Shown here one piece after another: positions 27,289 to 64,000 of a stretch of DNA of 64,000 nucleotides. Each line of letters begins with the position of its first letter. The stretch's first letter is position 1. The notes beneath the pieces are model-generated. The model saw only the letters and a program-made list of their open reading frames with translations. It did not search any database and was not told the origin of the DNA. This DNA is from Cytophagales bacterium (GTDB taxonomy: Bacteria > Bacteroidota > Bacteroidia > Cytophagales > Cyclobacteriaceae), in the NCBI GenBank assembly GCA_017303795.1, contig JAFLBR010000001.1:467185-531184 (forward strand), read 5' to 3'. Made by a program: the position numbers and the translations under genes.

Positions 27289-27325
27289 AAATCAGATGCT
27301 TTTCTCTATTTTTGAAAAGAAAAAA

Positions 27326-28111
27326 ATGATAAAGTTTTACTTACGGATTAGTTGCCTCGTAATAATTTTATTCGGGCTATTCTCTTGTGTGCCTAACAGA
27401 AGGATTCAGTTTTTACAAAAGGCAGAGGCTACCAATTTGAAACTTGATACAGTAATTAGAACATATGACATTGCTTTATCTGAGTATAGGCTGCAATCCG
27501 ATGATCAAATTTCTGTTCAGTTTGAGAGTCTAACCCCTAAAGAATTTGATTTTCTGAATGGTGAATCAACTGCAAGTATTTCTGCGTCTGGCACTTCTTT
27601 GCAAGCGGGTGGTAAGTTTATTGATCAAAATGGAGAAATTCCATTTCCATTTATTGGTAAGGTTAAACTTGGCGGAAAAACAATTTTTGAAGCGCAGGAA
27701 TACTTACAACAGATTTCTGATAAATATCTAGACTCTCCTATTGTAAAAGTGAGTTTACTAAATTTCAGAGTAACATTTTTAGGCGAAGTTTTAAAAGAAG
27801 GTACTGTAACGCTAAATAATAGCAAGGTTTCTTTGTTGGAGGCTATTGGATGGGTGGGTGGCTTAACTGATTTCGGAGATCGGCAGAAAGTTAAGATTAT
27901 AAGGACCTGGGGTAATAAAACGCAGGTACAGTATGTCAATCTTTTAGATGAGGATTTTATTAATTCCCCATATTACTTTGTTCACCCCCACGATGTAATT
28001 ATTGTAGCTCCAGCCAAAATAAGACCAATCATGAAGTACTCGTCACAAAACCTTGTGCTGCTGGCAACTGTAGCCAACCTTTTAATTCTAGTGGTTAACT
28101 TAAGCAGATAG
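27326..28111 (+). CDS. Wza-like polysaccharide export outer-membrane lipoprotein
   Basis: Outer-membrane polysaccharide export (OPX) protein. The ATG at 27326 gives a lipoprotein signal (ISCLVIILFGLFSC), with lipidation at that last Cys. An in-frame frame extends upstream into gmd but without plausible function. The Poly_export domain (YRLQSDDQISVQF and the GEIPFPFIGKVKLGGKT segment) is followed by one SLBB-like domain (VTFLGEVLKEGTVTLNNSKVSLLEAI). A C-terminal hydrophobic helix of about 20 residues (VLLATVANLLILVVN) would span the outer membrane, as the Wza helix does. It precedes the tyrosine autokinase by 2 bases, the usual pairing for capsule export. Confidence 0.92.
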   Translation: MIKFYLRISCLVIILFGLFSCVPNRRIQFLQKAEATNLKLDTVIRTYDIALSEYRLQSDDQISVQFESLTPKEFDFLNGESTASISASGTSLQAGGKFIDQNGEIPFPFIGKVKLGGKTIFEAQEYLQQISDKYLDSPIVKVSLLNFRVTFLGEVLKEGTVTLNNSKVSLLEAIGWVGGLTDFGDRQKVKIIRTWGNKTQVQYVNLLDEDFINSPYYFVHPHDVIIVAPAKIRPIMKYSSQNLVLLATVANLLILVVNLSR

Positions 28112-28113
28112 AC

Positions 28114-30495: not shown

Positions 30496-31320
30496 ATGAG
30501 TGTAATGGAAACCATTATTAAAAAGAAAACTGGCTGGATTGGTATTAATTGGGCTGAGTTATTTCGATATAAAGATTTGTTATGGTTTCTTACTGTTCGA
30601 AGTATTAAAGCCAAGTATGCTCAGTCCGTATTAGGCGTAAGTTGGGCGGTCATTCAGCCACTATTTTCAACCTTGGTTTATACTATTGTATTTGGAAATC
30701 TTGCCCGTATTGATTCGAATGGTGTACCTTATTTTCTATTCAGTCTGGTGGCCCTAGTACCTTGGACTTTCTTTTCCAATACACTTAGCGAGTCGGCTAA
30801 CAGTTTAATCAATAATGCCAATCTTGTTACTAAAGTCTACTTCCCTCGCCTGGTTTTACCATTATCTTCGGTGTTTTCGAAAGGCATCGATTTTTTAATT
30901 GGATTTATATTGCTGGTGGTTGTGCTAATTATTTACAAACAGACACCCGACTACACCATCATCTTCCTTCCCTGGTTATTATTAGTATTGTTAATGACTT
31001 CTCTTGGAACAGGTATGCTGTTATCGGCATTGGCAGTGCAATATCGGGATGTAAAGTATGCGCTGGTTTTTATGGTGCAATTACTGATGTATGCCGCCCC
31101 AGTTGTTTACCCAACAACCAATGTGCCAGAAGCTTATCGCAGTGGTTATGCCCTTAACCCAATGGTTGGTGTTATTGAGGGGTTTCGTTCTATTTTTTTA
31201 AAAACATTACCATTTCCGTATTTCTGGGTTGTGCTTGGTAGTTTTGTTTCATTGGTACTTTTCTTGGGTGGTCTGTTTTTCTTTCGCAAAATGGAACGGG
31301 TATTTTCAGATGTAGCGTAG
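30496..31320 (+). CDS. ABC-2 type polysaccharide export permease (Wzm-like)
   Basis: Permease of the polysaccharide ABC transporter that carries undecaprenyl-linked glycans across the inner membrane. The 274 residues contain six hydrophobic segments. Typical features are the N-terminal amphipathic RYKDLLWFLTVRSIKAKYAQS, followed by LGVSWAVIQPLFSTLVY, and the motif ALNPMVGVIEGFRSIFL near the end. It starts directly after the Wzc stop and is followed 18 bases later by its ATPase. Its presence together with a Wzc-type kinase is a mixture of two classical assembly systems. Confidence 0.93.
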   Translation: MSVMETIIKKKTGWIGINWAELFRYKDLLWFLTVRSIKAKYAQSVLGVSWAVIQPLFSTLVYTIVFGNLARIDSNGVPYFLFSLVALVPWTFFSNTLSESANSLINNANLVTKVYFPRLVLPLSSVFSKGIDFLIGFILLVVVLIIYKQTPDYTIIFLPWLLLVLLMTSLGTGMLLSALAVQYRDVKYALVFMVQLLMYAAPVVYPTTNVPEAYRSGYALNPMVGVIEGFRSIFLKTLPFPYFWVVLGSFVSLVLFLGGLFFFRKMERVFSDVA

Positions 31321-31338
31321 TAAATTCAATACTAAATT

Positions 31339-32622
31339 TTGAGCAGGGTTATCGAAGTAAAAGGCATAAGCAAAAAGTATCGCTTAGGCACGCAGGAAAT
31401 GGAACATGAAACATTTGTTGCATCCATTTGGCACGGCATAAAAGCTCCAATTAGAAACTTCCAACGTATTCGCAACCTTTCAGCACTTGACCGAGAGCGT
31501 GATTCTGTTTTTTGGGCATTAAATGATGTTTCATTTAATTTGGAACATGGGCAGGTGCTTGGCATAATTGGCCATAATGGGGCAGGCAAGAGCACATTAT
31601 TGAAAATCTTAAGTCAGATAACGGAGCCAAGTGCAGGCGAAATTATTATCCGTGGTCGCGTAGCATCATTATTAGAAGTGGGTACTGGGTTCCATCCTGA
31701 ATTATCAGGTCGCGATAATGTATATATGAATGGCACGATTCTCGGAATGACAAAAAAGGAAATTAGTAGAAAGTTTGATGAGATTGTTGATTTCAGTGGA
31801 GTTGAAAAACATATCGATACCCCGGTTAAGTTTTATTCTAGCGGAATGAAAGTTAGGTTAGGGTTTGCAGTGGCAGCCCATTTAGAACCTGAGATTTTAA
31901 TTATAGATGAGGTATTGGCCGTAGGGGATATCGGTTTTCAGCGAAAGTGTCTAGGAAAGATGGGTGAAGTGGCTGGCAACGGTCGAACTATTTTATTTGT
32001 AAGCCATAACATGGCAGCGGTGCAAGCACTTTGTACGCATGGCTTAATGTTACACAATGGGCAAGTAGCGTATCAAGGTTTGGTATCGGAAGCTACCCAG
32101 CATTATCTGGCTGAATTTCAAAGTGAGTCTGGCGACTTTTTTTCAGGTAACATTCAAAGAAGTGGGTCTGGTAAAGTGTTAATCAACTCCTTTCAGGTGC
32201 ATAACTTATTGGGCGAGCCAATGACTAGTGTGCATACCGGAGCCGACATTGTACTTTCATTTAAGCTTCATACAGAAGAGAGGCAGGTTTTAGAAGGTAT
32301 AGACATCGGCTTTTCAATTCATAGCACCGAGGATGATAGTCTGTTAACTATTCTTTATAGTTCATATATGGGAAAAGTTTTTACGATAACATCAAAAGAT
32401 GCTACACTTCAATGTGTATTAAAAAGTTTACCCTTGCCAGAAGGAAGATATTTAATAAAGGCACAAATTATGCAACGAGGCGAGGTGTTAGATTTTCCTA
32501 CAAGGGGTGTAGGCTATCTGGAGGTTATAGATGGTGATTTTTACGGAACTGGAATAAAAAGTACACGCCTCACCCGAAACAAGCCTGATTTTTTAATTAC
32601 CGGAAATTGGAAACAACTATGA
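31339..32622 (+). CDS. ABC transporter ATPase with C-terminal sugar-binding domain (Wzt-like)
   Basis: ATP-binding partner of the permease. Walker A is GHNGAGKST (residues 78-86), the signature is YSSGMKVRLGF (from 166) and Walker B is LIIDEVLAVGD (about 188-198). After the nucleotide-binding domain a further roughly 160 residues form a beta-rich Wzt_C domain (GKVLINSFQVHNLLG onward). In characterised O-antigen transporters this domain recognises the modified non-reducing end of the chain. The start is TTG at 31339, giving SRVIEVKGISKKYRLG, the expected beginning. The TGA overlaps the next ATG by 4 bases, and that next gene is a methyltransferase, a plausible chain-end modifier. Confidence 0.92.
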   Translation: MSRVIEVKGISKKYRLGTQEMEHETFVASIWHGIKAPIRNFQRIRNLSALDRERDSVFWALNDVSFNLEHGQVLGIIGHNGAGKSTLLKILSQITEPSAGEIIIRGRVASLLEVGTGFHPELSGRDNVYMNGTILGMTKKEISRKFDEIVDFSGVEKHIDTPVKFYSSGMKVRLGFAVAAHLEPEILIIDEVLAVGDIGFQRKCLGKMGEVAGNGRTILFVSHNMAAVQALCTHGLMLHNGQVAYQGLVSEATQHYLAEFQSESGDFFSGNIQRSGSGKVLINSFQVHNLLGEPMTSVHTGADIVLSFKLHTEERQVLEGIDIGFSIHSTEDDSLLTILYSSYMGKVFTITSKDATLQCVLKSLPLPEGRYLIKAQIMQRGEVLDFPTRGVGYLEVIDGDFYGTGIKSTRLTRNKPDFLITGNWKQL

Positions 32623-46785: not shown

Positions 46786-47868
46786 ATGCGGATTTTACAT
46801 GTGATTAGTAACCTCGAAGTAGGCGGAGCTGAAAAAATGGTAGTAACCATTGCCAATGCTTCGGTTAACACAGGGCATACAGTAGGGGTGTGTTTGCTGG
46901 TAAACAGGGGGCCATTGGTCAGTGAATTAGATAAACGTGTTGAGTTGCATGAATTGAATCGCCAGTGGAGATTCGATTGGAAAGCGCTGAAAACGTTTGC
47001 CTCCCTGGCAAAGCAGTATGATCTGCTACACGTGCACCTGAAACATAATGTAAAGTATGTGTATGTGGTAAATCTTCTTTTTGGTATTCCGGTGCCGGTG
47101 CTCTTGCACGATCATTCGGCTGAAGTATTGGTGACGGGGGTACCTAAAACAAAACTTCCTTTTTTTGTGGTTTGGTGGTTGCGCAAGCAGCACTACCTGG
47201 CCGTAAGTGAACAATTGCTGCACTGGGCGGTTGTAAATTTTGGACTTAACCCGGCCAGGGCTACTTGGTTAGGCAATGCCATAGCATGCAAGCCGGTGGC
47301 GGAAGTAAAAAAAGAAGAATCGGATGTAATCAAAATATTGCTTGTCAGTAACTTCAGACGTATCAAAAATATTGAGTTTGCAGTGGAGCTTGTGGCTAAA
47401 ATGATGAAGCGGGAGATGAAGGTAACATTAGATATTGTAGGGAAGCCGCTGGACAGAGCGTACTATGATGAAATTAAAAATACAATTCAGGTACGTGGTC
47501 TTTCCGATAAAATTCAGATCCGCGAGGATGTATCTGATATAAGCATGATCATTCCGGCCTATACCCTGGGAATCCATTGTTCAAAGGCAGAAACGGGACC
47601 TTTAGTTTTGTTGGAGTTTATGTGCGGTGGGTTGCCTTTTGTTGCTTATTCAAGTGGAGACGTATCTATCGATGTAATTAAAAAGTACCCTAAGTTAATA
47701 GCTAAAGAATTTGATGTGAATGATTGGATTAATCGAATAAGATATTTATTTCTTAATTTGAAAAAGTATCATGGAGAGCTGAGAACTTTTGTTCAAATGA
47801 CATATTCGCATAGAAGATATAATTATAGACTTAATGACATTTATAAGTTAATACTTGATGCTGGCTAA
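46786..47868 (+). CDS. Family 4 glycosyltransferase
   Basis: GT-B glycosyltransferase of 360 residues. The N-terminal HVISNLEVGGAEKMVVTIANA is the classical glycine-rich opening. The second domain has IKILLVSNFRRIKNIEFAVELV, LDIVGKPLD and KAETGPLVLLEFMCGGLPFVA with the E-x7-E-type signature in modified form. The last about 70 codons are strikingly more AT-rich than the rest, matching the following GNAT gene and suggesting a recombination joint inside the gene. It overlaps the next gene by 11 bases. Confidence 0.88.
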   Translation: MRILHVISNLEVGGAEKMVVTIANASVNTGHTVGVCLLVNRGPLVSELDKRVELHELNRQWRFDWKALKTFASLAKQYDLLHVHLKHNVKYVYVVNLLFGIPVPVLLHDHSAEVLVTGVPKTKLPFFVVWWLRKQHYLAVSEQLLHWAVVNFGLNPARATWLGNAIACKPVAEVKKEESDVIKILLVSNFRRIKNIEFAVELVAKMMKREMKVTLDIVGKPLDRAYYDEIKNTIQVRGLSDKIQIREDVSDISMIIPAYTLGIHCSKAETGPLVLLEFMCGGLPFVAYSSGDVSIDVIKKYPKLIAKEFDVNDWINRIRYLFLNLKKYHGELRTFVQMTYSHRRYNYRLNDIYKLILDAG

Positions 47869-48292
47869 ATTTGAGATTGCTGATCTTGAAAAAAAATTAC
47901 TTCTTGGTCAGATGAGTGATTTTCTTAAAATTGACGAAGTAATTGGACAAGAGTTGTGGAGTGAATCGAACTTTTTATCCGATTTGCCAAATAAATGGAA
48001 TTTGTCGTTGATAGCTACGTCAAACAAGAAATTGATTGGATTTCTTATTGCATCGAGAAAAGAATTATCAATTCATATTCATCGCTTGGCAATTGAGCAA
48101 CAATTTCAATCTGATGGAATTGGAAAAACAATGGTTCTTCGATTAATCGAAAAAGGTGAATCATACAAACTGCCAATAACGCTGAAGGTTCATCAAGAAA
48201 ATATTCGGGCATTAAAGTTTTATAAAAAACTGGATTTTAAAAGCATGAGAAAATCGGGAACAAATATTGAAATGCAATTTATCAAAGGTTAA
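47858..48292 (+). CDS. GNAT-family N-acetyltransferase
   Basis: A 144-residue GNAT protein. The core acetyl-CoA site is IHRLAIEQQFQSDGIGKTMV (with the Q-x-x-G-x-G/A-like loop), and ENIRALKFYKKLDFK is the last conserved motif. The ATG at 47858 was chosen; a TTG three bases before is possible. In a polysaccharide cluster it may acetylate an amino sugar. The neighbouring deacetylase and WbqC genes fit amino-sugar chemistry, but the substrate is unknown. Codon use is strongly AT-rich. Confidence 0.85.
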   Translation: MLAKFEIADLEKKLLLGQMSDFLKIDEVIGQELWSESNFLSDLPNKWNLSLIATSNKKLIGFLIASRKELSIHIHRLAIEQQFQSDGIGKTMVLRLIEKGESYKLPITLKVHQENIRALKFYKKLDFKSMRKSGTNIEMQFIKG

Positions 48293-48302
48293 CAGTTAAT
48301 TT

Positions 48303-48923
48303 ATGTTTGAATTCAAAAACAAAACCATTTTTGCCATAGCCCCACACGTAGATGATGTTGAACTGGGTGCGGGTGGCACTATTTATCAGTTGGGTAAAAC
48401 AAATGAAGTTTATTATATCGGGTTATCATTACCTCCTTTGGTTAACAACGATACATTGTTGAGCGAGTTTCATAATAGCGCGGCCATACTGGGTATTAAG
48501 CCCGATCATGTTATTCTAAAGTCATACGATCCGCGCAATTTGTTCGATGTCCGCATGGAGATACTTCAGTTTTTCTACGACCTGAACAAACAATACAAAC
48601 CAGATTTGGTTTTTATACCGAACAGTAAGGACATTCACCAATCGCACGAAGTGGTATTTGCAGAAGGCAGGCGTGCGTTCAAGTATTCTTCTATATTGGG
48701 TTATGAGTTACCGTGGAATAGCTTTGATTTTAAAATGGATGTGTTTATAGAGTTAAATAAAGAATCTGTTGAAGCGAAGGTAAAAGCCATTAACGCCTAC
48801 GAAACACAAAAGAGCCGCATGTTCTTCTCTAACGATATTGTTGGTGATTTGGCACGTGTGCGCGGCAAGCAAATCGGTAAAGAATTTGCCGAATGTTTCG
48901 AGGTAATCCGGATGATTCTATGA
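48303..48923 (+). CDS. PIG-L (LmbE-like) family deacetylase
   Basis: Zinc-dependent N-deacetylase of the PIG-L/LmbE family, 206 residues. The N-terminal metal motif is APHVDDVELG (His15, Asp17/18, Glu20), and the second metal ligand group is the HQSHEVVFAE segment near residue 110. Family members remove acetyl from N-acetylglucosamine or related sugars, including lipid-linked sugars. The next gene (WbqC) overlaps by 4 bases (ATGA). A free amine made here could be re-acylated by the GNAT product upstream. Confidence 0.9.
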   Translation: MFEFKNKTIFAIAPHVDDVELGAGGTIYQLGKTNEVYYIGLSLPPLVNNDTLLSEFHNSAAILGIKPDHVILKSYDPRNLFDVRMEILQFFYDLNKQYKPDLVFIPNSKDIHQSHEVVFAEGRRAFKYSSILGYELPWNSFDFKMDVFIELNKESVEAKVKAINAYETQKSRMFFSNDIVGDLARVRGKQIGKEFAECFEVIRMIL

Positions 48924-49627
48924 TAGTAAGCATTCACCAACCACACTTTCTGCCTTGGCTGGGTTATTTCAATAAAGTATGGAACAGTGATGTATTTGTG
49001 TGGCTGCACAATGTACAGTATCGTAAAAACTATTTTCAAAGTCGTACAAAACTTAAAAACCCACATACTCAACAGGAATTTTGGTTAACAGTACCTGTGC
49101 GGGCCTCGTTGGGTATGCGTATTGATGAAGTGGTGGAGGTAAACGATCGTTGGCGAAAGCCCATGACAAAAACACTGGAACAGTTTTATAAGAAAACCCC
49201 TTACTTTAATGAACTGGGTCCTGAGTTAATCAATCTGATTCTTACCTGCGATTCCACCCTGGATAAACTCAACTATCAGTTTTTCGATTTGATTTTAAAA
49301 GCGCTAAAGTATCCGGGTAAACTGGTACGGGTTGAAGAACTTTTGCCCTTGAGTGAAGAGCCGAATCAACGCCTTATTGAAATTTGCAAGAAGGTAAATA
49401 CCTCCCATTACCTTGCCGGTAAGGGCGGTAAGAATTACTTAGATCCGATTCAGTGGAACGCTTCCGGTATTGAAGTTGTGTGGCAGGATTTTCAACCGGC
49501 CCATACGGTGTATCCGCAACAAGGTGAAAATTTTATTCCGGGGCTATCGGTTATAGACTGCCTTTTTAATACAGGCATTGATGAAACCCGCAGGTTAATA
49601 GCAACGGCATGGCAAGCGAACAAGTAA
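48920..49627 (+). CDS. WbqC-family protein
   Basis: A 235-residue protein of the WbqC family, named from an O-antigen cluster and of unestablished biochemistry. The hallmark N-terminus is IHQPHFLPWLGYFNKV (HQP-x3-PW). Other family stretches are VQYRKNYFQSRTKLK, HYLAGKGGKNYL and a final GLSVIDCLFNTG. The ATG at 48920 makes an ATGA overlap with the deacetylase; a longer frame starting at 48893 would overlap it more. The adjacent deacetylase makes amine acylation or aminoacylation an attractive but untested function. Confidence 0.9.
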   Translation: MIVSIHQPHFLPWLGYFNKVWNSDVFVWLHNVQYRKNYFQSRTKLKNPHTQQEFWLTVPVRASLGMRIDEVVEVNDRWRKPMTKTLEQFYKKTPYFNELGPELINLILTCDSTLDKLNYQFFDLILKALKYPGKLVRVEELLPLSEEPNQRLIEICKKVNTSHYLAGKGGKNYLDPIQWNASGIEVVWQDFQPAHTVYPQQGENFIPGLSVIDCLFNTGIDETRRLIATAWQANK

Positions 49628-54897: not shown

Positions 54898-56105
54898 AAA
54901 TCCCCTTCTCACCACCCTACATTGACGAAGATGTTAAGCAGGAAGTACTGAGCGCACTCGAAAGCGGCTGGATTACCTCCGGCCCTAAAGTGTTGGAGTT
55001 AGAACGCTTGGTGGCAGAACAAACTGGAGTTTCGCATGTGGCGTGTTGTAATTCAGCAACCTCAGGTTTAATGTTGCTGCTGCATTGGTATGGTGTTACT
55101 AAAGGCGATGAAGTAATTATTCCGGCTTACACGTATGCGGCCACTGCGTTGGTTGTTGTTCATTTAGGAGCCAGGCCGGTAATGGTAGATTGCAACGAGG
55201 ATTTTAATATTGATCTTGAAGAGATAAGAAAGAAGATTACTCCAAAAACGAAAGCGGTTATTCCAGTCGATATAGCGGGCTGGCCTTGCGACTATAACCA
55301 GTTGAACGCACTGGTTAAGTCGCCAGAGATTAAGGCTAAGTTTAATGCAACAACCGAAGTTCAGAAAATGCTAGGTCGCATTTTAGTACTGTCTGATGCT
55401 GCTCACTCGCTAGGTGCTTTGTATAATGGTTTGCCCATGGGGCAATGGGCAGATTTCACGGTATTCTCATTTCATGCAGTAAAAAATGTTACAACAGCAG
55501 AAGGAGGAGCTATGGTAGTCAACTTGCCAGAAGTATTTAATCATGCCGATGTTTATCGTACTTTAAAACTTTGGTCATTAAATGGTCAAACAAAAGACGC
55601 CTTGGCTAAAACCAACGGTGCCGGTTGGAAGTATGATATTGTTTACCCCGGCTTTAAAATGAATATGCCCGATATTTGCGCAGCCATTGGCGTAGCTCAA
55701 CTAAAAAAATACAAAGAGCAGATTCTGCCAGCCAGAAAAAAAGTATTTGATAACTATGTTGAGCGTTTAAGAGAATATAATTGGGTGCAGTTGCCACCGC
55801 TTGATTCAGTTAATAAAATATCTTCTTATCATTTATTTGCTTTGCGCATAAATGCAATCTCAGAATCTGCGCGCGATAAAATGATTGAAAGTATTTCAGC
55901 AAAAGGTGTTTCGGTTAATGTTCATTTCCAACCGTTGCCGTTATTAACTGTATTTAAGAATATGGGCTATTCTATTCATGGTTATCCCCAAGCCTACGAT
56001 AATTATTCCCGCGAAATCTCATTACCCATATATCCGGGATTGGATTCAAAAACGGATTACATAATTGATTCAATTGTTGAAGCCTATAATGAAGTAAATG
56101 GCTAA
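54894..56105 (+). CDS. DegT/DnrJ/EryC1/StrS aminotransferase
   Basis: PLP-dependent sugar aminotransferase of 403 residues that converts a nucleotide-linked keto sugar to an amino sugar. The N-terminal FSPPYIDEDVKQEVLSALES and GWITSGPKVLELE are typical. The PLP Lys is Lys197 in FSFHAVKNVTTAEGG, and the SDAAHSLGALY region precedes it. The long middle part includes an insertion (residues about 140-175). It is followed with an 8-base overlap by a PglC-like transferase, so the pair may be part of a diamino-sugar route (PglE/PglC style). The matching 4,6-dehydratase is not seen in the window. Confidence 0.92.
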   Translation: MKIPFSPPYIDEDVKQEVLSALESGWITSGPKVLELERLVAEQTGVSHVACCNSATSGLMLLLHWYGVTKGDEVIIPAYTYAATALVVVHLGARPVMVDCNEDFNIDLEEIRKKITPKTKAVIPVDIAGWPCDYNQLNALVKSPEIKAKFNATTEVQKMLGRILVLSDAAHSLGALYNGLPMGQWADFTVFSFHAVKNVTTAEGGAMVVNLPEVFNHADVYRTLKLWSLNGQTKDALAKTNGAGWKYDIVYPGFKMNMPDICAAIGVAQLKKYKEQILPARKKVFDNYVERLREYNWVQLPPLDSVNKISSYHLFALRINAISESARDKMIESISAKGVSVNVHFQPLPLLTVFKNMGYSIHGYPQAYDNYSREISLPIYPGLDSKTDYIIDSIVEAYNEVNG

Positions 56106-56691
56106 GCGATTTTTTGATATTGTAGCGGCTACTCTTGGGCTTTTGATTTTGCTTCCATTTTTATTGGTGGTTGCTATCATTATTAAATTAGACTCTCAAG
56201 GCTCAATACTTTTTTTACAACAACGCATTGGTAAAGGCGGTGAACCTTTTTTTCTATTTAAATTTAGAACCATGCATGTAGGTGCCGATAAAGGCACTGC
56301 TATAACCGTAGGTAACCGCGATCCCAGAATAACAACAATAGGTTATTACTTGCGTAAATTTAAAATGGATGAGCTGCCGCAATTAATTAATGTTCTAAAA
56401 GGAGAAATGAGTTTTGTAGGCCCTCGTCCGGAGGTAAAAAAGTTTGTTGATTTATATACGCCTGAGCAACGAAGGGTGTTGGATGTTGCACCAGGTATGA
56501 CCGATTATGCTTCTATTTTGTTTCGAAACGAGAATGAGTTATTGAATGGAAAAAGCGACCCTGTTGCTTTTTATGTGGATCATATCATGCCCCAGAAGCT
56601 TCAATTGAATTTAAAATATATCGATACAAATAATTTATGGATAGATATAAAGATTTTATTTAAAACCTTGGTTGTTCTCTTTAGAAAGTGA
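56098..56691 (+). CDS. Initiating sugar-phosphate transferase (PglC/WcaJ-like)
   Basis: Monotopic phosphoglycosyl transferase of 197 residues that moves sugar-1-phosphate to undecaprenyl phosphate to start a repeat unit. The N-terminal reentrant hydrophobic helix (about residues 9-28) is followed by [41 protein letters not shown] with the catalytic Asp-Glu pair, and SFVGPRPEV. This is the short PglC-type form. The downstream neighbour is a second enzyme of the same family beginning at the next base after its stop (GTG at 56692). Confidence 0.93.
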
Positions 56692-57276
56692 GTGAAAACT
56701 ATTTATATACGATATCTTAAACGATTGGGAGACTTATTTTTTAGTCTTTTCTTTTTTGTATTTTTTGTAGGAGTGTTCCTGGTTCTGATTTTATTTTTCT
56801 TAGTCACGTTAAACTTGCCAATCTTTTACGTTTCAAAGCGAATTGGTAAAACAGGGAAAGTTTTTGAAATGTATAAGTTTCGCACATTGTCAACAGATTT
56901 AAATCTGGATTTAATTGAACGGCAATTTCCTTTAGGTCGATTTCTACGGTTTACAAATCTGGACGAACTCCCTCAACTTTGGAATGTGTTAAAAGGTGAG
57001 ATGTCATTGGTGGGGCCTCGGCCATTACCTGTTGAATACGCGAATTTATTTTCAGGTGAGCAGAATAACCGCCATAAAATTTTACCGGGTATTACCGGGT
57101 TAGCGCAAGTAAATGGCAAGAATGATCTTTCCTGGAATGAAAAATTCAAACTCGATCTTGAATACGTGAATAAAGTCTCTTTTAGTCTTGACATCCAGAT
57201 CTTATTCAAAACACTTATTTTAGCGTTAAGCTTCAAAAAGGATACTTCCTTAGCTGAGAAAAAATTTGCCGGATGA
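56692..57276 (+). CDS. Second initiating sugar-phosphate transferase (PglC/WcaJ-like)
   Basis: Paralogue of the gene just upstream, 194 residues, start GTG at 56692. The N-terminal hydrophobic stretch (about 15-40) is longer and more Phe-rich. The core has KRIGKTGKVFEMYKFRTL, then FTNLDELPQLWNVLKGEM with the Asp-Glu pair, SLVGPRPLPVEY and ITGLAQVNGKN. The region between KFRTL and the Asp-Glu motif is several residues shorter than in the upstream enzyme. The two may start different glycans or use different sugars. The ATGA overlap with the PglD-like gene suggests it uses the sugar made by that enzyme. Confidence 0.92.
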   Translation: MKTIYIRYLKRLGDLFFSLFFFVFFVGVFLVLILFFLVTLNLPIFYVSKRIGKTGKVFEMYKFRTLSTDLNLDLIERQFPLGRFLRFTNLDELPQLWNVLKGEMSLVGPRPLPVEYANLFSGEQNNRHKILPGITGLAQVNGKNDLSWNEKFKLDLEYVNKVSFSLDIQILFKTLILALSFKKDTSLAEKKFAG

Positions 57277-57911
57277 GTTTAAAGAATATTGCCATTGTGG
57301 GAGCCGGAGGTTTGGGTAAAGAAATTGCCGTACTCATTCATCAGATCAATCAACAAGAATTAACCTGGAACGTGGTGGGTTTTTATGATGATACTTGTTC
57401 TGTTGGAAGACGAATCGCCACTCACTTAGTGTTAGGTAAAGTAGCTGAATTAAATAAAGTCGATTATCCGCTTGATGTTATTATTGCAATTGGAGATCCA
57501 TCTACAAAATCTGAAGTAGTAAGTAAAATTAAAAACCAGAATGTTACGCACCCGATTTTGATTCATCCGGCATCAACAATCGGTATGGCGGTGCAACTTG
57601 GAGCCGGTTCGATCATCACCGCTGGTTGTCATCTAACAGTAGATATTGAAATTGGTGAGCATGTACTTATTAACTTGAACTCCACGATTGGTCACGATGC
57701 ACGGATTGGAAGTTATTCATCTATTATGCCTGGTGTTCATATTTCAGGATTTGTACAAATTGAGAAATCTGTTTTGATAGGCACAGGTGCATCAATATTG
57801 CAACATATACAAATAGGTGCCGGAGCACGAATTGGAGCAGGATCAATTGTAACAAAATCTGTTGCAGCGCAAATAACAGTAATGGGCGTGCCTGCACGAG
57901 TTAAAGAATGA
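57273..57911 (+). CDS. NeuD/PglD-like sugar O/N-acyltransferase
   Basis: Left-handed beta-helix acyltransferase of 212 residues. The N-terminal Rossmann-like IAIVGAGGLGKEIAVLI binds the nucleotide sugar. The C-terminal hexapeptide repeat region from about residue 90 (QLGAGSIITAGCHLTVDIEIGEHVLINLNS as outline, with His in TIGHDARIGSYS likely catalytic) ends in MGVPARV. Family members acetylate UDP-4-amino sugars (PglD) or sialic-acid precursors (NeuD). With the DegT aminotransferases and PglC-like enzymes it suggests a 4-acetamido sugar in the repeat unit. It is followed after one base by xrtF. Confidence 0.9.
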   Translation: MSLKNIAIVGAGGLGKEIAVLIHQINQQELTWNVVGFYDDTCSVGRRIATHLVLGKVAELNKVDYPLDVIIAIGDPSTKSEVVSKIKNQNVTHPILIHPASTIGMAVQLGAGSIITAGCHLTVDIEIGEHVLINLNSTIGHDARIGSYSSIMPGVHISGFVQIEKSVLIGTGASILQHIQIGAGARIGAGSIVTKSVAAQITVMGVPARVKE

Positions 57912-57912
57912 T

Positions 57913-58461
57913 ATGAAAGAATTTAAACCTGCTTTTTGGTTTCTGGCGATTTTCCTTGGTCTTTACCTAGGGCTTAATATCATTTACGGAGTTTGGGTTT
58001 CATCCTTTGGTAAACAAGCAGATTCTGCAACGCTGTTAATTACAAGACAAACCTCGCATATCTTAAATCTGTTCGGAGAAGAAACACACACCCAGCCAAA
58101 AGAAAGCTCACCAACGGTGGCAATAGTAAAAGATGCTCGTGTTGCATTAAGTGTTTTCGAAGGTTGTAACAGCATCAATGTAATGATTGTGTTTGTTTCA
58201 TTCTTATTTGCTTTTAAAGGGAATTGGAAAAAGTTAACATGGTTTCTCCCGCTTGGTTTAGTGTTGATATATATCGCCAACCTGTTGCGAATAATTGCCC
58301 TCTTTTATGTTGCTGAATACTGGCGACAGTACTTTTATTACATTCATAAGTACATGTTTACTGCCGTTATTTATCTTATAGTATTTATGCTTTGGTGGTG
58401 GTGGATTGAAAAGGTTAGTGGGGTTTCGGTTAAGGCACTAATCAAATCGCGGCAACCATGA
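57913..58461 (+). CDS. xrtF: Exosortase family protein XrtF
   Basis: Integral membrane cysteine protease/transpeptidase of the exosortase family, 182 residues with about five hydrophobic segments. The catalytic triad is complete: Cys85 in FEGCNSINVMIV, Arg126 in YIANLLRIIALF and His145 in YYIHKYMFTAV. This compact form and the partner gene downstream match XrtF of Bacteroidota, for which I know of no characterised substrate. By analogy with the PEP-CTERM exosortase it would cut a C-terminal tripartite sorting signal and pass the protein to an envelope acceptor. Its place inside a polysaccharide cluster fits the general exosortase association with exopolysaccharide. ATGA overlap with the partner gene. 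Confidence 0.9.
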   Translation: MKEFKPAFWFLAIFLGLYLGLNIIYGVWVSSFGKQADSATLLITRQTSHILNLFGEETHTQPKESSPTVAIVKDARVALSVFEGCNSINVMIVFVSFLFAFKGNWKKLTWFLPLGLVLIYIANLLRIIALFYVAEYWRQYFYYIHKYMFTAVIYLIVFMLWWWWIEKVSGVSVKALIKSRQP

Positions 58462-58886
58462 AGCGCTATGCTCTTATAACTTTAGCGATGCTCATTCTGC
58501 TGATCGTTTACCTATTTCAAAAAGTAAGCTATGCTGGAATGATTAATTTCATTCTTCCAGAAAGTCTCACAATCAATCATCCATATGGCGTGTTTATTTT
58601 TAATCGTATAATCCGGTTGATCATTAATGATGCTGCATGCATGCTGTTAATCTGGAGCCTGTTTGGACAAATAAAATACCTGAAAGCAGCTTTTGTAGTT
58701 TTTCTGATCGAGTTGTTTATACTGCTTCCGCTCTATTTTGTAATTAAATTAAACCTGGAGGGCGCTTCAGAAATTTCCTCCCCGTTGTTATCTCAGATTC
58801 ACCGCATCATAGTAAATCCGTTGTTGATGCTTATTTTAATTCTTGGATTTTATTATCAGAAAGTAACTTCAAGCACCCGTGCATAA
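58458..58886 (+). CDS. Exosortase F system-associated membrane protein
   Basis: 142-residue membrane protein with four hydrophobic segments (about 5-20, 45-67, 75-95 and 113-132). It fits the family found adjacent to XrtF: conserved features are the N-terminal short helix followed by a periplasmic loop, NRIIRLIINDAACMLLIWSLF in the middle and HRIIVNPLLMLILILGFYYQK at the end (the last FYYQK is typical). Function unknown; it is thought to be part of the XrtF system because the two genes stay together. ATGA overlap with xrtF upstream and 8-base overlap with the DegT gene downstream. Confidence 0.88.
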   Translation: MKRYALITLAMLILLIVYLFQKVSYAGMINFILPESLTINHPYGVFIFNRIIRLIINDAACMLLIWSLFGQIKYLKAAFVVFLIELFILLPLYFVIKLNLEGASEISSPLLSQIHRIIVNPLLMLILILGFYYQKVTSSTRA

Positions 58887-59970
58887 ACATCCATTATCTT
58901 ATAATCAAATAGATGCACAAGGTCTTCATGAGGTTTTGTTGAAGTACCAACATCGCAATCATGAAGAACTTGTTCATGATTTTGAAAAAGCAGCATCGTC
59001 ACACCTTTTAAATAACCCGGTAGTAGGGGTATCATCAGGTACAGCAGCGTTACATCTAGCCTTAGCTACATTGAATATAGGGCCCGGTGATTTGGTAGCA
59101 GTACCAACATTTTCCTATGTAGCTTCTGTTAACCCTGTACTTTATACAGGAGCCAAACCTGTATGGATTGATAGTGAAGAAACAACCTGGAATCTATGTC
59201 CGGAGTTACTTTCACAAGCTTTGAAAAAATTCAATACCCGATCCAAACGAATTAAAGCAATTATTGTAGTGCACAATTATGGAGTGCCTGCCAACATGAA
59301 AGAAATAATGAAACTGGCAAAGTTGTATCGTGTACCAGTAATAGAAGATGCTGCCGAAGCCTGGGGTGCTACGGTAAATGGAAAACCTTGTGGCACGGTA
59401 GGGGATATTGGTGGGGTCTTTTCCTTTAACAATAACAAAACGGTAACCGCCTTTGGAGGTGGATTACTCGTAACAACAAATTCCAAATGGGAAAAGCGGG
59501 CCCGATTTCTGGCTTCACAGGCCCGGTTGCCGAAGTCATTTTATCTTTTTAATGAAGTTGGGTTCAACTACCGTATAAGTCCGTTGATAGCAGCCTATGG
59601 CTTATTGCAAATGCAACAAACTTCAATATTGGTATCTCAACGTCAGGAAATTTTCAGCAGCTATTGCGAGGCTTTTAAGAGTCACCCCAGTATCAGTTGG
59701 GCTAAAACCCTTCCGGGCGATATGGCAAGTCGCTGGTTGTCTGCCTTTCGGTTTAGTTCGCCCTTAAACCCTCAAAAACTCCTTCAGAAACTGGAAAAAG
59801 AAGGGTTAGAGGTTCGCAGGGGTTGGAATCCACTCCACACCATGAAGCACCTGAAGGCCTTCCCGGCCATCAAATCAAAGAACTCAGAGCACCTTTTTAA
59901 AGAAGTAATTTGTTTACCCAGCGGTACCGGAGCCCACCTATGTATCGATACGATTAAGGAATTAATTTAA
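58879..59970 (+). CDS. DegT/DnrJ/EryC1/StrS aminotransferase
   Basis: A second PLP-dependent sugar aminotransferase, 363 residues, start GTG at 58879. Conserved are SSGTAALHLALATLNIGPGD, VAVPTFSYVASVNPVLYTGA, VIEDAAEAWGATVNGKPCG (PLP Asp) and the PLP Lys187 in FSFNNNKTVTAFGGG. It uses Asn-Asn-Asn-Lys where the upstream paralogue has His-Ala-Val-Lys, which places it in another subgroup, nearer to PglE/LegC-type enzymes. It is the last gene of the co-directional cluster. The sugar precursor and the dehydratase that makes it are not in the window. Confidence 0.92.
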   Translation: MHKHPLSYNQIDAQGLHEVLLKYQHRNHEELVHDFEKAASSHLLNNPVVGVSSGTAALHLALATLNIGPGDLVAVPTFSYVASVNPVLYTGAKPVWIDSEETTWNLCPELLSQALKKFNTRSKRIKAIIVVHNYGVPANMKEIMKLAKLYRVPVIEDAAEAWGATVNGKPCGTVGDIGGVFSFNNNKTVTAFGGGLLVTTNSKWEKRARFLASQARLPKSFYLFNEVGFNYRISPLIAAYGLLQMQQTSILVSQRQEIFSSYCEAFKSHPSISWAKTLPGDMASRWLSAFRFSSPLNPQKLLQKLEKEGLEVRRGWNPLHTMKHLKAFPAIKSKNSEHLFKEVICLPSGTGAHLCIDTIKELI

Positions 59971-60348
59971 AGATTGTTGTTCGTTGGTTGAACATTACAC
60001 CTCAAAGGTGTGGTCTTAAATATTTGAAGGTTTTAATTGTATCTTTAAATTATTGATTTACATTTAGTTATGTATTAATTCCCTTTATTCCCAGCCAAAT
60101 GATTCTTTAATCATAATGTCTGGATTCTTCCCAACTTAAAGGATTGTATTTAATGGTCGGTTTTTTAAAAGGATTCGGGTTACTTATTCATAGCAAAAGT
60201 TTATTTAAATTGTGAAGTTTTTTAATGGAAACTTGCACGTAATGTGTTCAAAGTACATTCTGACAAACCAAGGTAGGAAGCAGGGTTTGAATGTATTTTG
60301 ATAAGGAAACTTGTAAAAACAGTATTTTTTAAAGTCAAAACGGGTTTT
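59971..60348. other. 378-base intergenic region before the giant repeat protein
   Basis: No open frame or RNA gene is seen. At 59997-60011 a small hairpin ACACCT-CAA-AGGTGT may slow transcription after the last cluster gene, but it lacks a T-tract. The rest is AT-rich, and the stretch near 60,290 (TGAATGTATTTTGATAAGG) is the best -7-like spot, short of a full TAnnTTTG match. The following gene probably has its own promoter here because of the distance. Confidence 0.5.
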
Positions 60349-63300
60349 ATGTCTAAAAAAATGGTAGTTTTTTATCGCTCGTTCATAGGGATTATAGTTT
60401 TCTTATTTGCGTGCCTGGGCGCTAACGCTCAAACCACTTACTTTACACGAGCTTCAACGGCCTGGAACCTCACGACTACGTGGTCAACAGTTGGTTATGG
60501 TGGGGCAGCTGCCTCGGCCGTACCCGTTGCCGGGGATATTGTAAATATTGGAAACGGAAATACGGTTACCGTAACTGCTGCAACTGCCTGTGCAACCCTA
60601 ACCATCGATAATGGGGCGATCTTAAATCTAAATAATACCATTGTTGTATCATCCACTACCACAGTAAATGGTTCGTTGTCAATTAATTCGACTGCGGGTA
60701 CAAAAACATTCACAGGGTTGGTTACTATTGGTGTAGGTGGTACCTGGAATGAAACAGTTAACGAACCTATTACCTTTCAAGGTGGCATTACCAATAATGG
60801 AACATTTACATCTAATACAGGTGTACATACTTTCAATACGAATTCGCAGGTTTTAACGGGTACACTCACCATTCCAAGTGTTACAGTAACGGGTGGTACA
60901 GTAGTTCTTACCAACACCAATTCATTAACGGTTAACACGGCTTTGAGTGGTACAGGACGCATCACCCAAGGTGCGGGAGCTACGTTGAATATTGGCGGTT
61001 CCTCGGGTATCACCAACATGACAGCCACGGCTAATGGCAACACGGTAAACTACACGGGCACTGGCCAAACCATTCACAACAATGCCTATGTAAATTTAGG
61101 TATGTCGGGAAGCGGGGTGAAAAACCTTCAGGCTGGTATAACTTCAATTACAGGAAATCTTACTTTAGGTGGTTCTGCGAGTGCTACGGCTGTGGCAGCG
61201 CTAACGATTGGAGGGAACGTGACCTTAGGAAATGGTACAAGTTTTACAGCCGGAGCATTCACGCATAATGTAGCAGGCGACTGGATCAACAATGGTAGTA
61301 CTTTCACTGGAACGGGAAGCGTAATAAATCTCAATGGTGCGGCTCAAAACATTGGTGGATCAGCCACAACCACCTTTGACGATCTGCAATTAAGCGGTAG
61401 CGGAACAAAAAACTTTGCAGTAAATACTACAATTAGTGATGAGTTGTCTATTGATAGCGGAGTAATAGCGGGGCTGAATAACATTAATACCCATTCAGCC
61501 AATACGTTAATTCTGGGCGGTGCATTGCAAGGCACCGGCACATGGGGTAGCACAGCCTCCTCACCAGCCGCGGTTAATCAAAACGATACATTTTTTAGCG
61601 GAAACGGTCTCATCACAGTAAATGCTGGAGGTTTTACCTTCTATTCTATCGCAAGTAGCGATTGGAGTTTAACCTCTACCTGGTCTACCATTGGATTTGG
61701 CGGGGCAGCGGCATCTTCTACGCCAGGAGCAGGAGATTATGTGGTTATTGGTGATGGGCAGAGTGTTACCATAACCGATGATGAAACATGCGAGGTGTTG
61801 TTATTTGATGCAAGCACTGCACAAACTAATTCTTTAATTATTAATTCGGGAAGCTTAACAGTTGCCACAGATATCACCATTCCTCAAACCATAACATCAG
61901 GATCCAACATTCTTAGTGTGGTATCAGGAAGCCTGCTGGCTGAAAATGTGAATTTCACAGCTTCGGGTGGTGGAGCAGGTCATCAGTTAACGATTTCAAC
62001 AGGTACTGTTTCAATCAATGGAGATATTACCGGTATAGGAGCAAGCAGCACGATCCAGTTTACGGGAGCAGGTTTGCTTGAAGTTGGCGGTTCCATGTTT
62101 TCATCAGCAAATGGTACATTAACTTCTGTTGCAGGAAGCACAGTAGCGTATACCGGAGCGGCCCAAACCGTTCAGGCACTCGGTTATAATAACCTGACTT
62201 TATCTGGCAGTGGCACTAAAACCCTTGCGGGAACAACAGCTTTGGGTGGCAACCTGGTTATTAGTGATGATGTAACATTTACTATCGGAGCCTTTACATT
62301 TTCAGTTGCCGGAACCACCACAGTGGGAACAGGCACAAGTGGAACGTTATCCATCACCTCGGCTACAGGTACTAAAACTTTTACTGGTTTAGTAACGGTT
62401 GCTACAGGTGGTACATGGACCAATACCACAGAAGCTGTAACCTTTCAGGGTGGTATAACCAACAATGGTACGTTTACAGCAGGTACAGGAGTACACACTT
62501 TCAATACGAATTCACAGGCATTAACGGGTACATTTACATTTACGAGTGTAACGGTAACGGGTGCAGCCGTAGTGCTTACCAATACCAATTCATTAACGGT
62601 TAACACAGCGTTGAGTGGCACGGGCCGGATCACGCAAGGTGCAGGTGCAACCTTAAACATTGGTGGTGCCTCCGCAATCACCAACATGACTGCAACAGCA
62701 AGTGGTAATACAGTAAATTATACTGGAGCGGCACAGACGGTAAAGAATGTGAACTATGCAAACTTAGGGTTGTCCGGCAGTGGAGTAAAGACACTTCAGG
62801 TTGGAACAACAGCGATAACGGGTGATCTTACTTTGAGTGGTACGGTAACCACAACTGGAGTAATAGGCCTTACGATTGGAGGTACAGTTGACATTGGTTC
62901 AGGAACAACATTCACTGCTGGTGCTTTTACGCATGCTGTTGGAGGTGATTGGATTAATGATGGAACATTTACAGGCACAGGCAGTGTGATTAACTTCAAT
63001 GGTGCTGCCCAGAGCATTACAGGCGGATCAACTACGTTCAATGATTTGATCTTATCTGGATCTGGAACCAAGACTTTAGGCATAAGTACAACGGCATCAG
63101 GAATTTTATCAATTGCGAGTGGCGTGGTAGTAAATTTAAATAACGCGAATACCTATACTTCTAATTCGCTTATTCTTGGTAATACAATTCAACAATCTGG
63201 CACATGGGGTAGCACAAGTTCTGCAGCCACAAATCAAAATGATACTTTTTTCAGTGGGAATGGTTTGATTACAGTAGTTACGGGAGGTAATACTTACTAT

Positions 63301-64000
63301 TCGATTGCTAGCACAGCATGGAACGTAAACACTACTTGGTCCAACACTGGATTTGGTGGTCCGGCAGCCGCAGGTACTCCTGGTCCGAATGATTTTGTGT
63401 ACATTGGTGATAGTTTTTCAGTTACCGTTACAGGCCCAGAGTCTTGTAGTGAATTATTTTTTGATGCAGGCACAAGTGTTACTAATACGCTTGCTATAAA
63501 TCCAGGTGGTAGCCTTGCGGTTTCTGGTATAGTTACCATTCCCCAGACAGTAACTTCTGGCTCAAACATATTAAGCGTTGGTGCAGGCACGCTAACAGCA
63601 AATAGAATTGATTTCACAGCTTCGGGAGGCGGAGCAGGTCATCAGTTAACAATTTCAACAGGTACTGTTTCAGTCAATGGAGATATTACTGGTATAGGAG
63701 CAAGCAGCACGATCCAGTTTACGGGAGCAGGTTTGCTTGAAGTTGGCGGTTCCATGTTTTCATCAGCAAATGGTACATTAACTTCTGTTGCCGGAAGCAC
63801 AGTAGCGTATACCGGAGCGGCCCAAACCGTTCAGGCACTCGGTTATAATAACCTGACTTTATCTGGCAGCGGTACTAAAACCCTTGCGGGAACAACAGCT
63901 TTGGGTGGCAACCTGGTTATTAGTGATGATGTAACATTTACTATCGGAGCCTTTACATTTTCAGTTGCCGGAACCACCACAGTGGGAACAGGCACAAGTG
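60349..64000 (+). CDS. Giant repetitive secreted surface protein, 3' partial
   Basis: Starts at ATG 60349 with a signal peptide (FIGIIVFLFACLGANAQ) and stays open to the window end, so more than 1,217 residues. The rest is an almost pure beta-type sequence rich in Thr, Ser, Gly, Asn, Val and Ile, with repeating short units such as TLTIGGNVTLGNGTSFTAGAF-like (outline), NNGTFT, FNGAAQ and LSGSGTKTL. These look like a long beta-helix or adhesin stalk. Three larger modules each open with W-x3-TTWS-x-x-G-[FY]-GG (Trp codons at 60463, 61663 and 63319; spacing 1,200 and 1,656 bases). The C-terminus is outside the window, so a sorting signal (T9SS or exosortase type) cannot be checked. It lies just after the XrtF-bearing cluster. 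Confidence 0.85.
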   Translation, partial: MSKKMVVFYRSFIGIIVFLFACLGANAQTTYFTRASTAWNLTTTWSTVGYGGAAASAVPVAGDIVNIGNGNTVTVTAATACATLTIDNGAILNLNNTIVVSSTTTVNGSLSINSTAGTKTFTGLVTIGVGGTWNETVNEPITFQGGITNNGTFTSNTGVHTFNTNSQVLTGTLTIPSVTVTGGTVVLTNTNSLTVNTALSGTGRITQGAGATLNIGGSSGITNMTATANGNTVNYTGTGQTIHNNAYVNLGMSGSGVKNLQAGITSITGNLTLGGSASATAVAALTIGGNVTLGNGTSFTAGAFTHNVAGDWINNGSTFTGTGSVINLNGAAQNIGGSATTTFDDLQLSGSGTKNFAVNTTISDELSIDSGVIAGLNNINTHSANTLILGGALQGTGTWGSTASSPAAVNQNDTFFSGNGLITVNAGGFTFYSIASSDWSLTSTWSTIGFGGAAASSTPGAGDYVVIGDGQSVTITDDETCEVLLFDASTAQTNSLIINSGSLTVATDITIPQTITSGSNILSVVSGSLLAENVNFTASGGGAGHQLTISTGTVSINGDITGIGASSTIQFTGAGLLEVGGSMFSSANGTLTSVAGSTVAYTGAAQTVQALGYNNLTLSGSGTKTLAGTTALGGNLVISDDVTFTIGAFTFSVAGTTTVGTGTSGTLSITSATGTKTFTGLVTVATGGTWTNTTEAVTFQGGITNNGTFTAGTGVHTFNTNSQALTGTFTFTSVTVTGAAVVLTNTNSLTVNTALSGTGRITQGAGATLNIGGASAITNMTATASGNTVNYTGAAQTVKNVNYANLGLSGSGVKTLQVGTTAITGDLTLSGTVTTTGVIGLTIGGTVDIGSGTTFTAGAFTHAVGGDWINDGTFTGTGSVINFNGAAQSITGGSTTFNDLILSGSGTKTLGISTTASGILSIASGVVVNLNNANTYTSNSLILGNTIQQSGTWGSTSSAATNQNDTFFSGNGLITVVTGGNTYYSIASTAWNVNTTWSNTGFGGPAAAGTPGPNDFVYIGDSFSVTVTGPESCSELFFDAGTSVTNTLAINPGGSLAVSGIVTIPQTVTSGSNILSVGAGTLTANRIDFTASGGGAGHQLTISTGTVSVNGDITGIGASSTIQFTGAGLLEVGGSMFSSANGTLTSVAGSTVAYTGAAQTVQALGYNNLTLSGSGTKTLAGTTALGGNLVISDDVTFTIGAFTFSVAGTTTVGTGTS
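61952..62341 (+). repeat. 390-base near-identical repeat, copy 1
   Basis: This segment matches 63611-64000 with about eight differences counted by eye, all but one silent (one Ile/Val change). The copies are 1,659 bases apart and lie in the same frame inside the surface protein. The second copy runs to the window edge, so the real length may be greater. Confidence 0.9.
63611..64000 (+). repeat. 390-base near-identical repeat, copy 2 (runs off window)
   Basis: Second copy of 61952-62341. The match begins at the ATTTCACAG box and continues to the last base of the window. The high DNA identity, compared with the looser similarity of other modules (for example 60,785-61,020 with 62,455-62,690), points to recent duplication or gene conversion. 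Confidence 0.9.

Follow-up and report, generated by a model that had tools for sequence, protein, structure and literature searches.

Organization of the xrtF locus

We analysed a 64,000-nucleotide stretch (the window) of contig JAFLBR010000001.1 from a Cytophagales bacterium (assembly GCA_017303795.1), which encodes exosortase F (XrtF) and its associated membrane protein (the XrtF partner), and found, past the end of the window, the gene of a 64-residue protein (the mini-protein) that is a candidate substrate of XrtF (Table 1). XrtF exceeded the cut-off of its NCBIfam model, and its catalytic residues Cys85, Arg126 and His145 were invariant in alignments of 12 and of 40 homologues, the latter comprising the XrtF sequence itself and 39 from the best 80 xrtF loci. 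The AlphaFold model of XrtF had a mean pLDDT (predicted local distance difference test) of 87.8, and a PDB sequence search with XrtF returned no related solved structure at E ≤ 1. The adjacent partner also scored above its model cut-off and contained four hydrophobic segments by hydropathy. These results bear out a first-pass annotation of the window, which had identified both proteins, placed the pair within a polysaccharide cluster, with PglD-like and DegT genes around it, and reported a secreted repeat protein gene as the next one; that gene starts at 60298. The overlaps of 4 to 8 bases that it had described from the PglD-like gene to the DegT gene were present between xrtF and the partner gene (4 bases) and between the partner gene and degT (8 bases), but not between pglD and xrtF, where one base intervenes.

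The giant repeat protein carries a T9SS sorting domain

The first-pass annotation had proposed the giant repeat protein as the nearest candidate for sorting by XrtF. Beyond base 64000, the C-terminus of this protein proved to be a type A sorting domain of the type IX secretion system (T9SS; TIGR04183, 40.3 bits, cut-off 23; PF18962, 32.9 bits, cut-off 27) preceded by an Ig_7 domain (PF19081, 46.4 bits), a result that the annotation itself had named beforehand as speaking against its proposal, and a motif–helix–basic tail, looked for at the same C-terminus, was absent. TIGR04183 was over cut-off in all 12 Cytophagales giant proteins tested, namely this one and 11 from the 28 loci with a giant gene (L064, and the last 300 residues of ten others). 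Although the giant gene is retained beside xrtF in 28 of the 38 loci from Cytophagales, its product is most improbable as the XrtF substrate in view of this C-terminal domain. In addition, two Marivirga genomes, whose xrtF loci (L085 and L091) hold neither a giant gene nor a mini-protein gene within 10 kb on each side, carry the two together away from xrtF, a VPITGIE mini-protein lying behind a T9SS protein of 1554 or 1538 residues. The expectation of a candidate sorting substrate near xrtF thus stood, but the candidate is the product of the gene after the giant gene, not the giant protein. An in-frame ATG 17 codons past the listed TTG start suits the giant protein's signal peptide better, and its homologues in 24 loci are single reading frames of 843–2038 residues, the two parts of the present gene, taken here as one, lying on either side of a 100-N gap.

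Table 1 Genes and features of the xrtF locus. Positions refer to the window; positions beyond its end are given in record L002, in which position 1 corresponds to window position 59816.
Feature	Position	Strand	Evidence and remarks
Sugar transferase	56098..56691	+	PF02397; opens the stretch; absent from the first-pass annotation
PglC-like phosphoglycosyltransferase	56692..57276	+	PF02397; top PDB match PglC 8g1n, E 8.8e-43; absent from the first-pass annotation
PglD/NeuD-type sugar N-acetyltransferase	57273..57911	+	TIGR03570 184.1 bits (cut-off 160.8); PDB VioB 7txp (best), pilin glycosylation protein 4m98, PglD 3bss
xrtF, exosortase	57913..58461	+	NCBIfam TIGR04128 141.7 bits (cut-off 90); Cys85, Arg126, His145
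Exosortase F system-associated membrane protein (XrtF partner)	58458..58886	+	TIGR04127 39.3 bits (cut-off 35)
DegT sugar aminotransferase, PglE/LegC-like	58879..59970	+	PF01041; PDB sugar aminotransferases 7b0m, 1o61, 4ztc
Giant repeat protein, part within window	60298..64000	+	Secreted; TTG start listed
100-N scaffold gap	L002:4186-4285		Starts right at the window end (64000), inside the repeat region of the giant protein
Giant repeat protein, part after gap	L002:4316-8686	+	Ig_7 domain, then T9SS type A domain
Mini-protein, 64 residues, candidate XrtF substrate	L002:8683-8877 (window 68498-68692 by extrapolation)	+	Sequence, hydropathy
PglF/CapD-type dehydratase	L002:8881-10782	+	PF02719 396.8 bits; top PDB match WlaL 5bju, E 1.1e-94

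A conserved mini-protein with an exosortase-like tail follows the giant gene

Clustering of the neighbours of the best 80 xrtF loci of named genomes, 38 of which were counted as Cytophagales, revealed a protein of ~65 residues behind the giant gene in Cytophagales. The order giant–mini–capD, on one strand, was found in all 24 Cytophagales loci (of the 38) holding both giant and capD genes, with 23 distinct mini-protein sequences among them (L074 and L080 being identical); in four further loci (L067, L075, L083 and L096) the contig ended within the giant gene, and ten others had no giant gene in the stretch examined. The spacing from giant to mini-protein gene ranged from −4 to +18 bases, with a 4-base overlap in 11 of the 24 loci. 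In the present genome, the mini-protein gene overlaps the stop of the giant gene by 4 bases, and 3 bases separate it from the pglF/capD-like gene.

As judged from sequence and hydropathy, the mini-protein comprises a predicted signal peptide, ~14 residues rich in Pro, Gly and Asp, a VPITG motif, one helix and a basic tail. Residues Q26, P37, G40, E42, G48 and G52 were invariant in 24 aligned mini-proteins (this one and 23 others), and the segment that begins at the Gln following the predicted signal peptide and ends at the Gly of the motif measured 14–25 residues in 25 sequences, the script used having set the start 2–4 residues too early in two of them. The search of the genome for exosortase-like tails proposed by the first-pass annotation, made with the mini-protein model and thus covering tails of this kind, yielded one confident copy, the mini-protein (E 6e-26), the next match lying at E 0.03. 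An open reading frame (ORF) of 106 residues at C12:280730 (E 0.04), considered as a second copy, lacked the motif and was discarded; its surroundings resemble what we take to be conjugation genes. When eight mini-proteins were compared with Pfam and NCBIfam, no model was passed: three of them touched the PID-CTERM model NF046080 at 13.2–15.8 bits (cut-off 26), with no match for the mini-protein of this locus, one touched the LPXTG model (14.5 bits, cut-off 15.9), and none matched a PEP-CTERM model at E ≤ 1, the motif of this locus being VPITG.

The mini-protein co-occurs with XrtF

The first-pass annotation had also suggested examining whether tailed proteins co-occur with xrtF, and they did so in a sample of 199 genomes from 185 genera of family f7, taken as Flavobacteriaceae, which we searched with a model built from 11 seeds (L209 was left out as doubtful). 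XrtF was over cut-off in 128 genomes and the mini-protein matched at E ≤ 1e-4 in 126; 125 genomes had both, three had XrtF only (G574, G592 and G710), one had the mini-protein only (G736, assembled as 120 contigs totalling 2.0 Mb) and 70 had neither (Fisher p = 6.5e-49), the first three counts becoming 118, three and one without the seven seed genomes. At E ≤ 0.01, a mini-protein match was present in all 128 XrtF genomes and also in 18 without XrtF; those 18 matches were weak (3e-4 or worse) except that of G736, and, among the matches listed, the one in G644 covered model positions 4–48 of a 956-residue frame, as a signal peptide would. Likewise, a mixed mini-protein model applied to 28 chosen genomes recovered mini-proteins from the majority of the XrtF-bearing f7 genomes, whereas the 11 genomes without XrtF gave no convincing match. 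A metagenome-assembled genome named Chryseobacterium gleum, which has XrtF, encoded a 50-residue protein ending in PTPIGG, a helix and KKLYDKK (E 5.4e-4).

In a sample of 192 genomes of the order, where exosortase-family proteins were taken as TIGR04128 matches at E ≤ 1e-3, XrtX-like enzymes included, and mini-proteins likewise at E ≤ 1e-3 with the mini-protein of this locus among the seeds, 70 genomes had an exosortase-family match, 64 a mini-protein, 62 both, two the mini-protein only, eight the exosortase only and 120 neither. Both were matched at E ≤ 0.01 in 66 genomes, and the XrtF cut-off itself was exceeded in 18 of the 192. At least 33 pairs of mini-protein and exosortase genes lay within 724 bases of each other in at least 29 genomes, a lower bound, the pairs having been picked by eye from candidate lists. 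Among the matches listed, mini-proteins from outside the family of the present genome usually carried P[IVLM]DGG; L159 and L161, which were tested from this set, exceeded the PID-CTERM cut-off. Three genomes of the order (G456, G489 and G481) contained 4–6 mini-protein matches on contigs other than that of the exosortase match; XrtX-type enzymes may have several mini-protein substrates.

XrtF also co-occurs strongly with PorU, which was over cut-off in 130 of the 199 f7 genomes (both in 121, XrtF only in seven, PorU only in nine, neither in 62), as would be expected if XrtF and the mini-protein were found together merely as parts of a set of T9SS and adhesion genes serving one lifestyle, with no enzyme–substrate relation. 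This explanation is very unlikely: the mini-protein was retained in six of the seven genomes with XrtF and without PorU but was present in only one of the nine with PorU and without XrtF, which argues that it follows XrtF rather than PorU, and it directly adjoins exosortase genes in the 29 or more genomes of the order. A strict dependence of XrtF on PorU was dropped as a rule, as no PorU exceeded the cut-off in seven of the 128 f7 genomes that carry XrtF; in the phylum sample, a PorU match was seen by eye in all 46 genomes over the XrtF cut-off, and PorU was over cut-off in 269 of 392. SprA, tried as a marker of T9SS presence, was found in 23 of 23 chosen genomes and hence did not discriminate. 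Full-length SprA translocon protein was found in all four tested f7 genomes without PorU and XrtF (G134, G182, G583 and G584).

Mini-protein genes recur beside T9SS cargo genes

Large proteins encoded beside mini-protein genes away from xrtF carried a T9SS signal over cut-off in ten of ten cases, five of type A (TIGR04183) and five of type C (NF033708), a count that speaks for the nature of such neighbours rather than their frequency, the ten having been chosen because a large gene adjoined the mini-protein gene. They came from the two Marivirga genomes and from others, and were scored on their last 450 residues (599 for L297). One f7 genome contained two tandem pairs (L268:4768-12526), in each of which a mini-protein gene stands behind a cargo gene of T9SS type C (products of 1074 and 1295 residues). 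In four Flavobacterium genomes (L297-L301), the mini-protein gene is followed by genes for a ~600-residue protein and a ~500-residue protein with an IGIGT-type start; the ~600-residue protein of L297, the one tested, carried a T9SS type A signal. The mini-protein of L271, encoded 4 kb from a second exosortase gene, may belong to that exosortase.

Glycan genes embed the mini-protein gene

Scans with domain models covered 18 proteins, and PglC-, PglD-, PglE- and PglF-like proteins were all encoded in the operon, as indicated by PDB sequence matches and by TIGR03570 over cut-off. Here we take 1o61 and 4ztc to be Campylobacter jejuni PglE, and WlaL to be PglF. DegT scored below the cut-offs of the LegC and PseC models and the dehydratase below that of PseB. 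With these four enzymes, the operon resembles bacillosamine synthesis and loading at the level of sequence, the likeness to the Campylobacter Pgl pathway coming from PDB sequence matches. As a nucleophile, a 4-amino sugar is well suited to a transpeptidase. In Porphyromonas gingivalis, a Wbp/Vim amino-sugar pathway serves to link T9SS proteins to a glycan (PMC7468200); a literature search pairing exosortase with bacillosamine found no paper.

All 24 complete Cytophagales loci contained a member of the sugar-transferase cluster and capD, while pglD was present in 22, degT in 23 and the XrtF partner in 21; the gene order upstream of xrtF varied. This embedding of the mini-protein gene among sugar genes suggests a glycan partner, and it counts against the reading that XrtF merely cleaves the mini-protein, releasing a signal or matrix peptide with no transfer to a glycan. 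The predicted product, at 14–25 residues, is of peptide size as that reading would have it, but, according to a proposal cited in PMC7468200, exosortases link the newly formed C-terminus to a compound not yet identified, and we regard cleavage alone as improbable.

Elsewhere in the cluster, at window positions 27254-32622, a Wza/Wzc-type pair (27254-30495) occurs together with an ABC-2 transporter gene, which is followed by a gene for its putative ATPase (31339-32622); two export routes in one polysaccharide cluster are, to our knowledge, unusual. Genes for a GNAT acetyltransferase, a PIG-L deacetylase and a WbqC-family protein lie in series at 47855-49627, possibly for sugar de- and re-acylation, recalling by analogy the Vim genes.

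A possible mini-protein gene in Flavobacterium johnsoniae

In Table 2 of a Flavobacterium johnsoniae study (PMC10936215), deletions of xrtF, of Fjoh_1449 (the partner) and of the 'hypothetical' gene Fjoh_0651 are identical in all seven columns, and the insert used to complement Fjoh_0651 spans 434 bp together with the promoter. The mini-protein gene in front of ribE-pdxA encodes 79–90 residues, as listed, in six Flavobacterium genomes (G751-G755 and G758). In F. tagetis, 46 ORFs lie between this gene and porZ (PF21544, 94.0 and 89.0 bits in the two genomes examined, cut-off 27); the corresponding distance is 65 ORFs in Flavobacterium sp. LPB0248, and Fjoh_0651 lies 56 locus tags from porZ (Fjoh_0707). 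By synteny, it is plausible, and on balance we believe, that Fjoh_0651 is the mini-protein gene of F. johnsoniae; we hold this unproven assignment only with reserve because other small genes, four of them tandem paralogues of 96–98 residues, lie within the same distance range of porZ. A literature search found one paper on Fjoh_0651 and none on Fjoh_0648-0650 or Fjoh_0652-0654.

A proposed role of XrtF and the mini-protein

The identity of the enzyme, the precursor architecture, the linkage of the genes and their co-occurrence together make it highly probable, on sequence grounds, that the mini-protein is the XrtF substrate. The precursor would be exported by Sec and cleaved by signal peptidase before Gln26, and the tail helix and basic end would keep it in the inner membrane, where Cys85 of XrtF, with Arg126 and His145, may cleave near VPI-T-G. 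The freed peptide of ~14–15 residues (QPGDPSSDPDVPIT) would be handed to a nucleophile, the likeliest acceptor being an amino sugar on a polyprenyl-linked glycan begun by the PglC/D/E/F-type enzymes of the operon. The giant protein, exported by the T9SS, may work together with the peptide or its conjugate on the cell surface and so take part in adhesion and biofilm formation. We think it likely that XrtF and its partner process a dedicated 64-residue precursor whose peptide is passed to a nucleophile and has a joint surface role with the giant protein; of this, the cleavage site, the transfer, the acceptor and the joint action with T9SS cargo are what we infer. A glycan as the acceptor, as the first-pass annotation had suggested, is plausible; transfer to a bacillosamine-type glycan in particular is a tentative proposal. 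More speculatively, and rather doubtfully, a relay might operate in which XrtF joins the ~15-residue peptide to a bacillosamine-primed glycan and PorU then ligates the T9SS cargo of the preceding, overlapping gene to that peptide–glycan as its anchor or acceptor; the pairs of T9SS cargo and mini-protein genes that recur in Cytophagales and Flavobacteriia would then be the mark of this relay in the genomes.

Several observations weigh against the mini-protein as a dedicated XrtF substrate. Three of the 128 XrtF-bearing f7 genomes had no mini-protein at E ≤ 1e-4, and three f6 genomes with XrtF lacked a clear one (none, E 0.034 and E 0.025). The kinship of genera means that states are inherited together, and the p-value overstates their independence. 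In 27 of 37 f7 locus records, the mini-protein gene has ribE and pdxA downstream and lies away from T9SS cargo and glycan genes; these 37 are the records, out of 42, in which a mini-protein was found (five gave none by the script rule, and L228 gave a wrong ORF), and some records repeat one place. The Table 2 row common to the F. johnsoniae deletions of xrtF, its partner and Fjoh_0651 is also that of the porU, porZ and Fjoh_0334 (aminotransferase) deletions (PMC10936215).

Finally, adjacency and co-occurrence are equally compatible with a mini-protein that is no substrate but remains intact, crosses the membrane once and serves as a subunit or regulator, providing a scaffold for XrtF, the partner or the export machinery. 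We consider this unlikely, since the tail has a motif, a helix and a basic cluster like known exosortase signals, three of nine mini-proteins tested (L159, L161 and L218) exceed the cut-off of the PID-CTERM sorting model and six do not, almost no mature domain is present beyond the linker of 14–25 residues, and three of nine Flavobacterium genomes searched bear 3–4 mini-proteins (E ≤ 1e-5), unlike a stoichiometric subunit.

Comparison with known systems

Like the mini-protein, the PID-CTERM (NF046080) proteins encoded beside XrtX-like exosortases are tiny and secreted, with a Pro-rich linker, a P-I-x-G motif, a G..G helix and a basic end, and the likeness extends to the adjacency of the genes to exosortase genes in the order. 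By contrast, VPI[TSG]G[IVL]E is the motif of the mini-protein at this locus and of its XrtF-linked relatives in Cytophagales, which fall below the PID-CTERM cut-off of 26 bits (15.8 bits for the best of the eight tested, 23.9 bits for the Marivirga mini-protein L252), and mini-proteins of this type pair with XrtF and a T9SS cargo gene. The PEP-CTERM/XrtA (EpsH) system likewise comprises an exosortase, a tripartite C-terminal tail and polysaccharide genes; unlike that system, which has many larger proteins, the XrtF system has one 64-residue candidate substrate and the TIGR04127 partner. In the P. gingivalis system of PorU and anionic lipopolysaccharide, the C-terminus is joined to an amino-sugar-containing glycan and amino-sugar genes are needed (PMC7468200), as proposed here for XrtF, and the xrtF and porU deletions share their F. 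johnsoniae phenotype (PMC10936215), but the enzymes differ: PorU belongs to the gingipain family and acts in the surface attachment complex, and XrtF is a membrane exosortase.

A 2025 paper (PMC12188702) describes XrtF targets as not yet known, and the F. johnsoniae study (PMC10936215) leaves XrtF substrate identification to future work. A literature search outside whose reach most subscription journals lay found no paper on an XrtF substrate or the mini-protein and none naming PID-CTERM; the NCBI model of that name shows that its curators are aware of the related tail. A single tiny candidate, together with the existing F. johnsoniae genetic model, makes the XrtF substrate question directly testable. 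The recurrent gene pairs tie exosortase sorting to T9SS export, and the small size of the candidate suggests that the product of an exosortase can be a short peptide instead of a surface protein.

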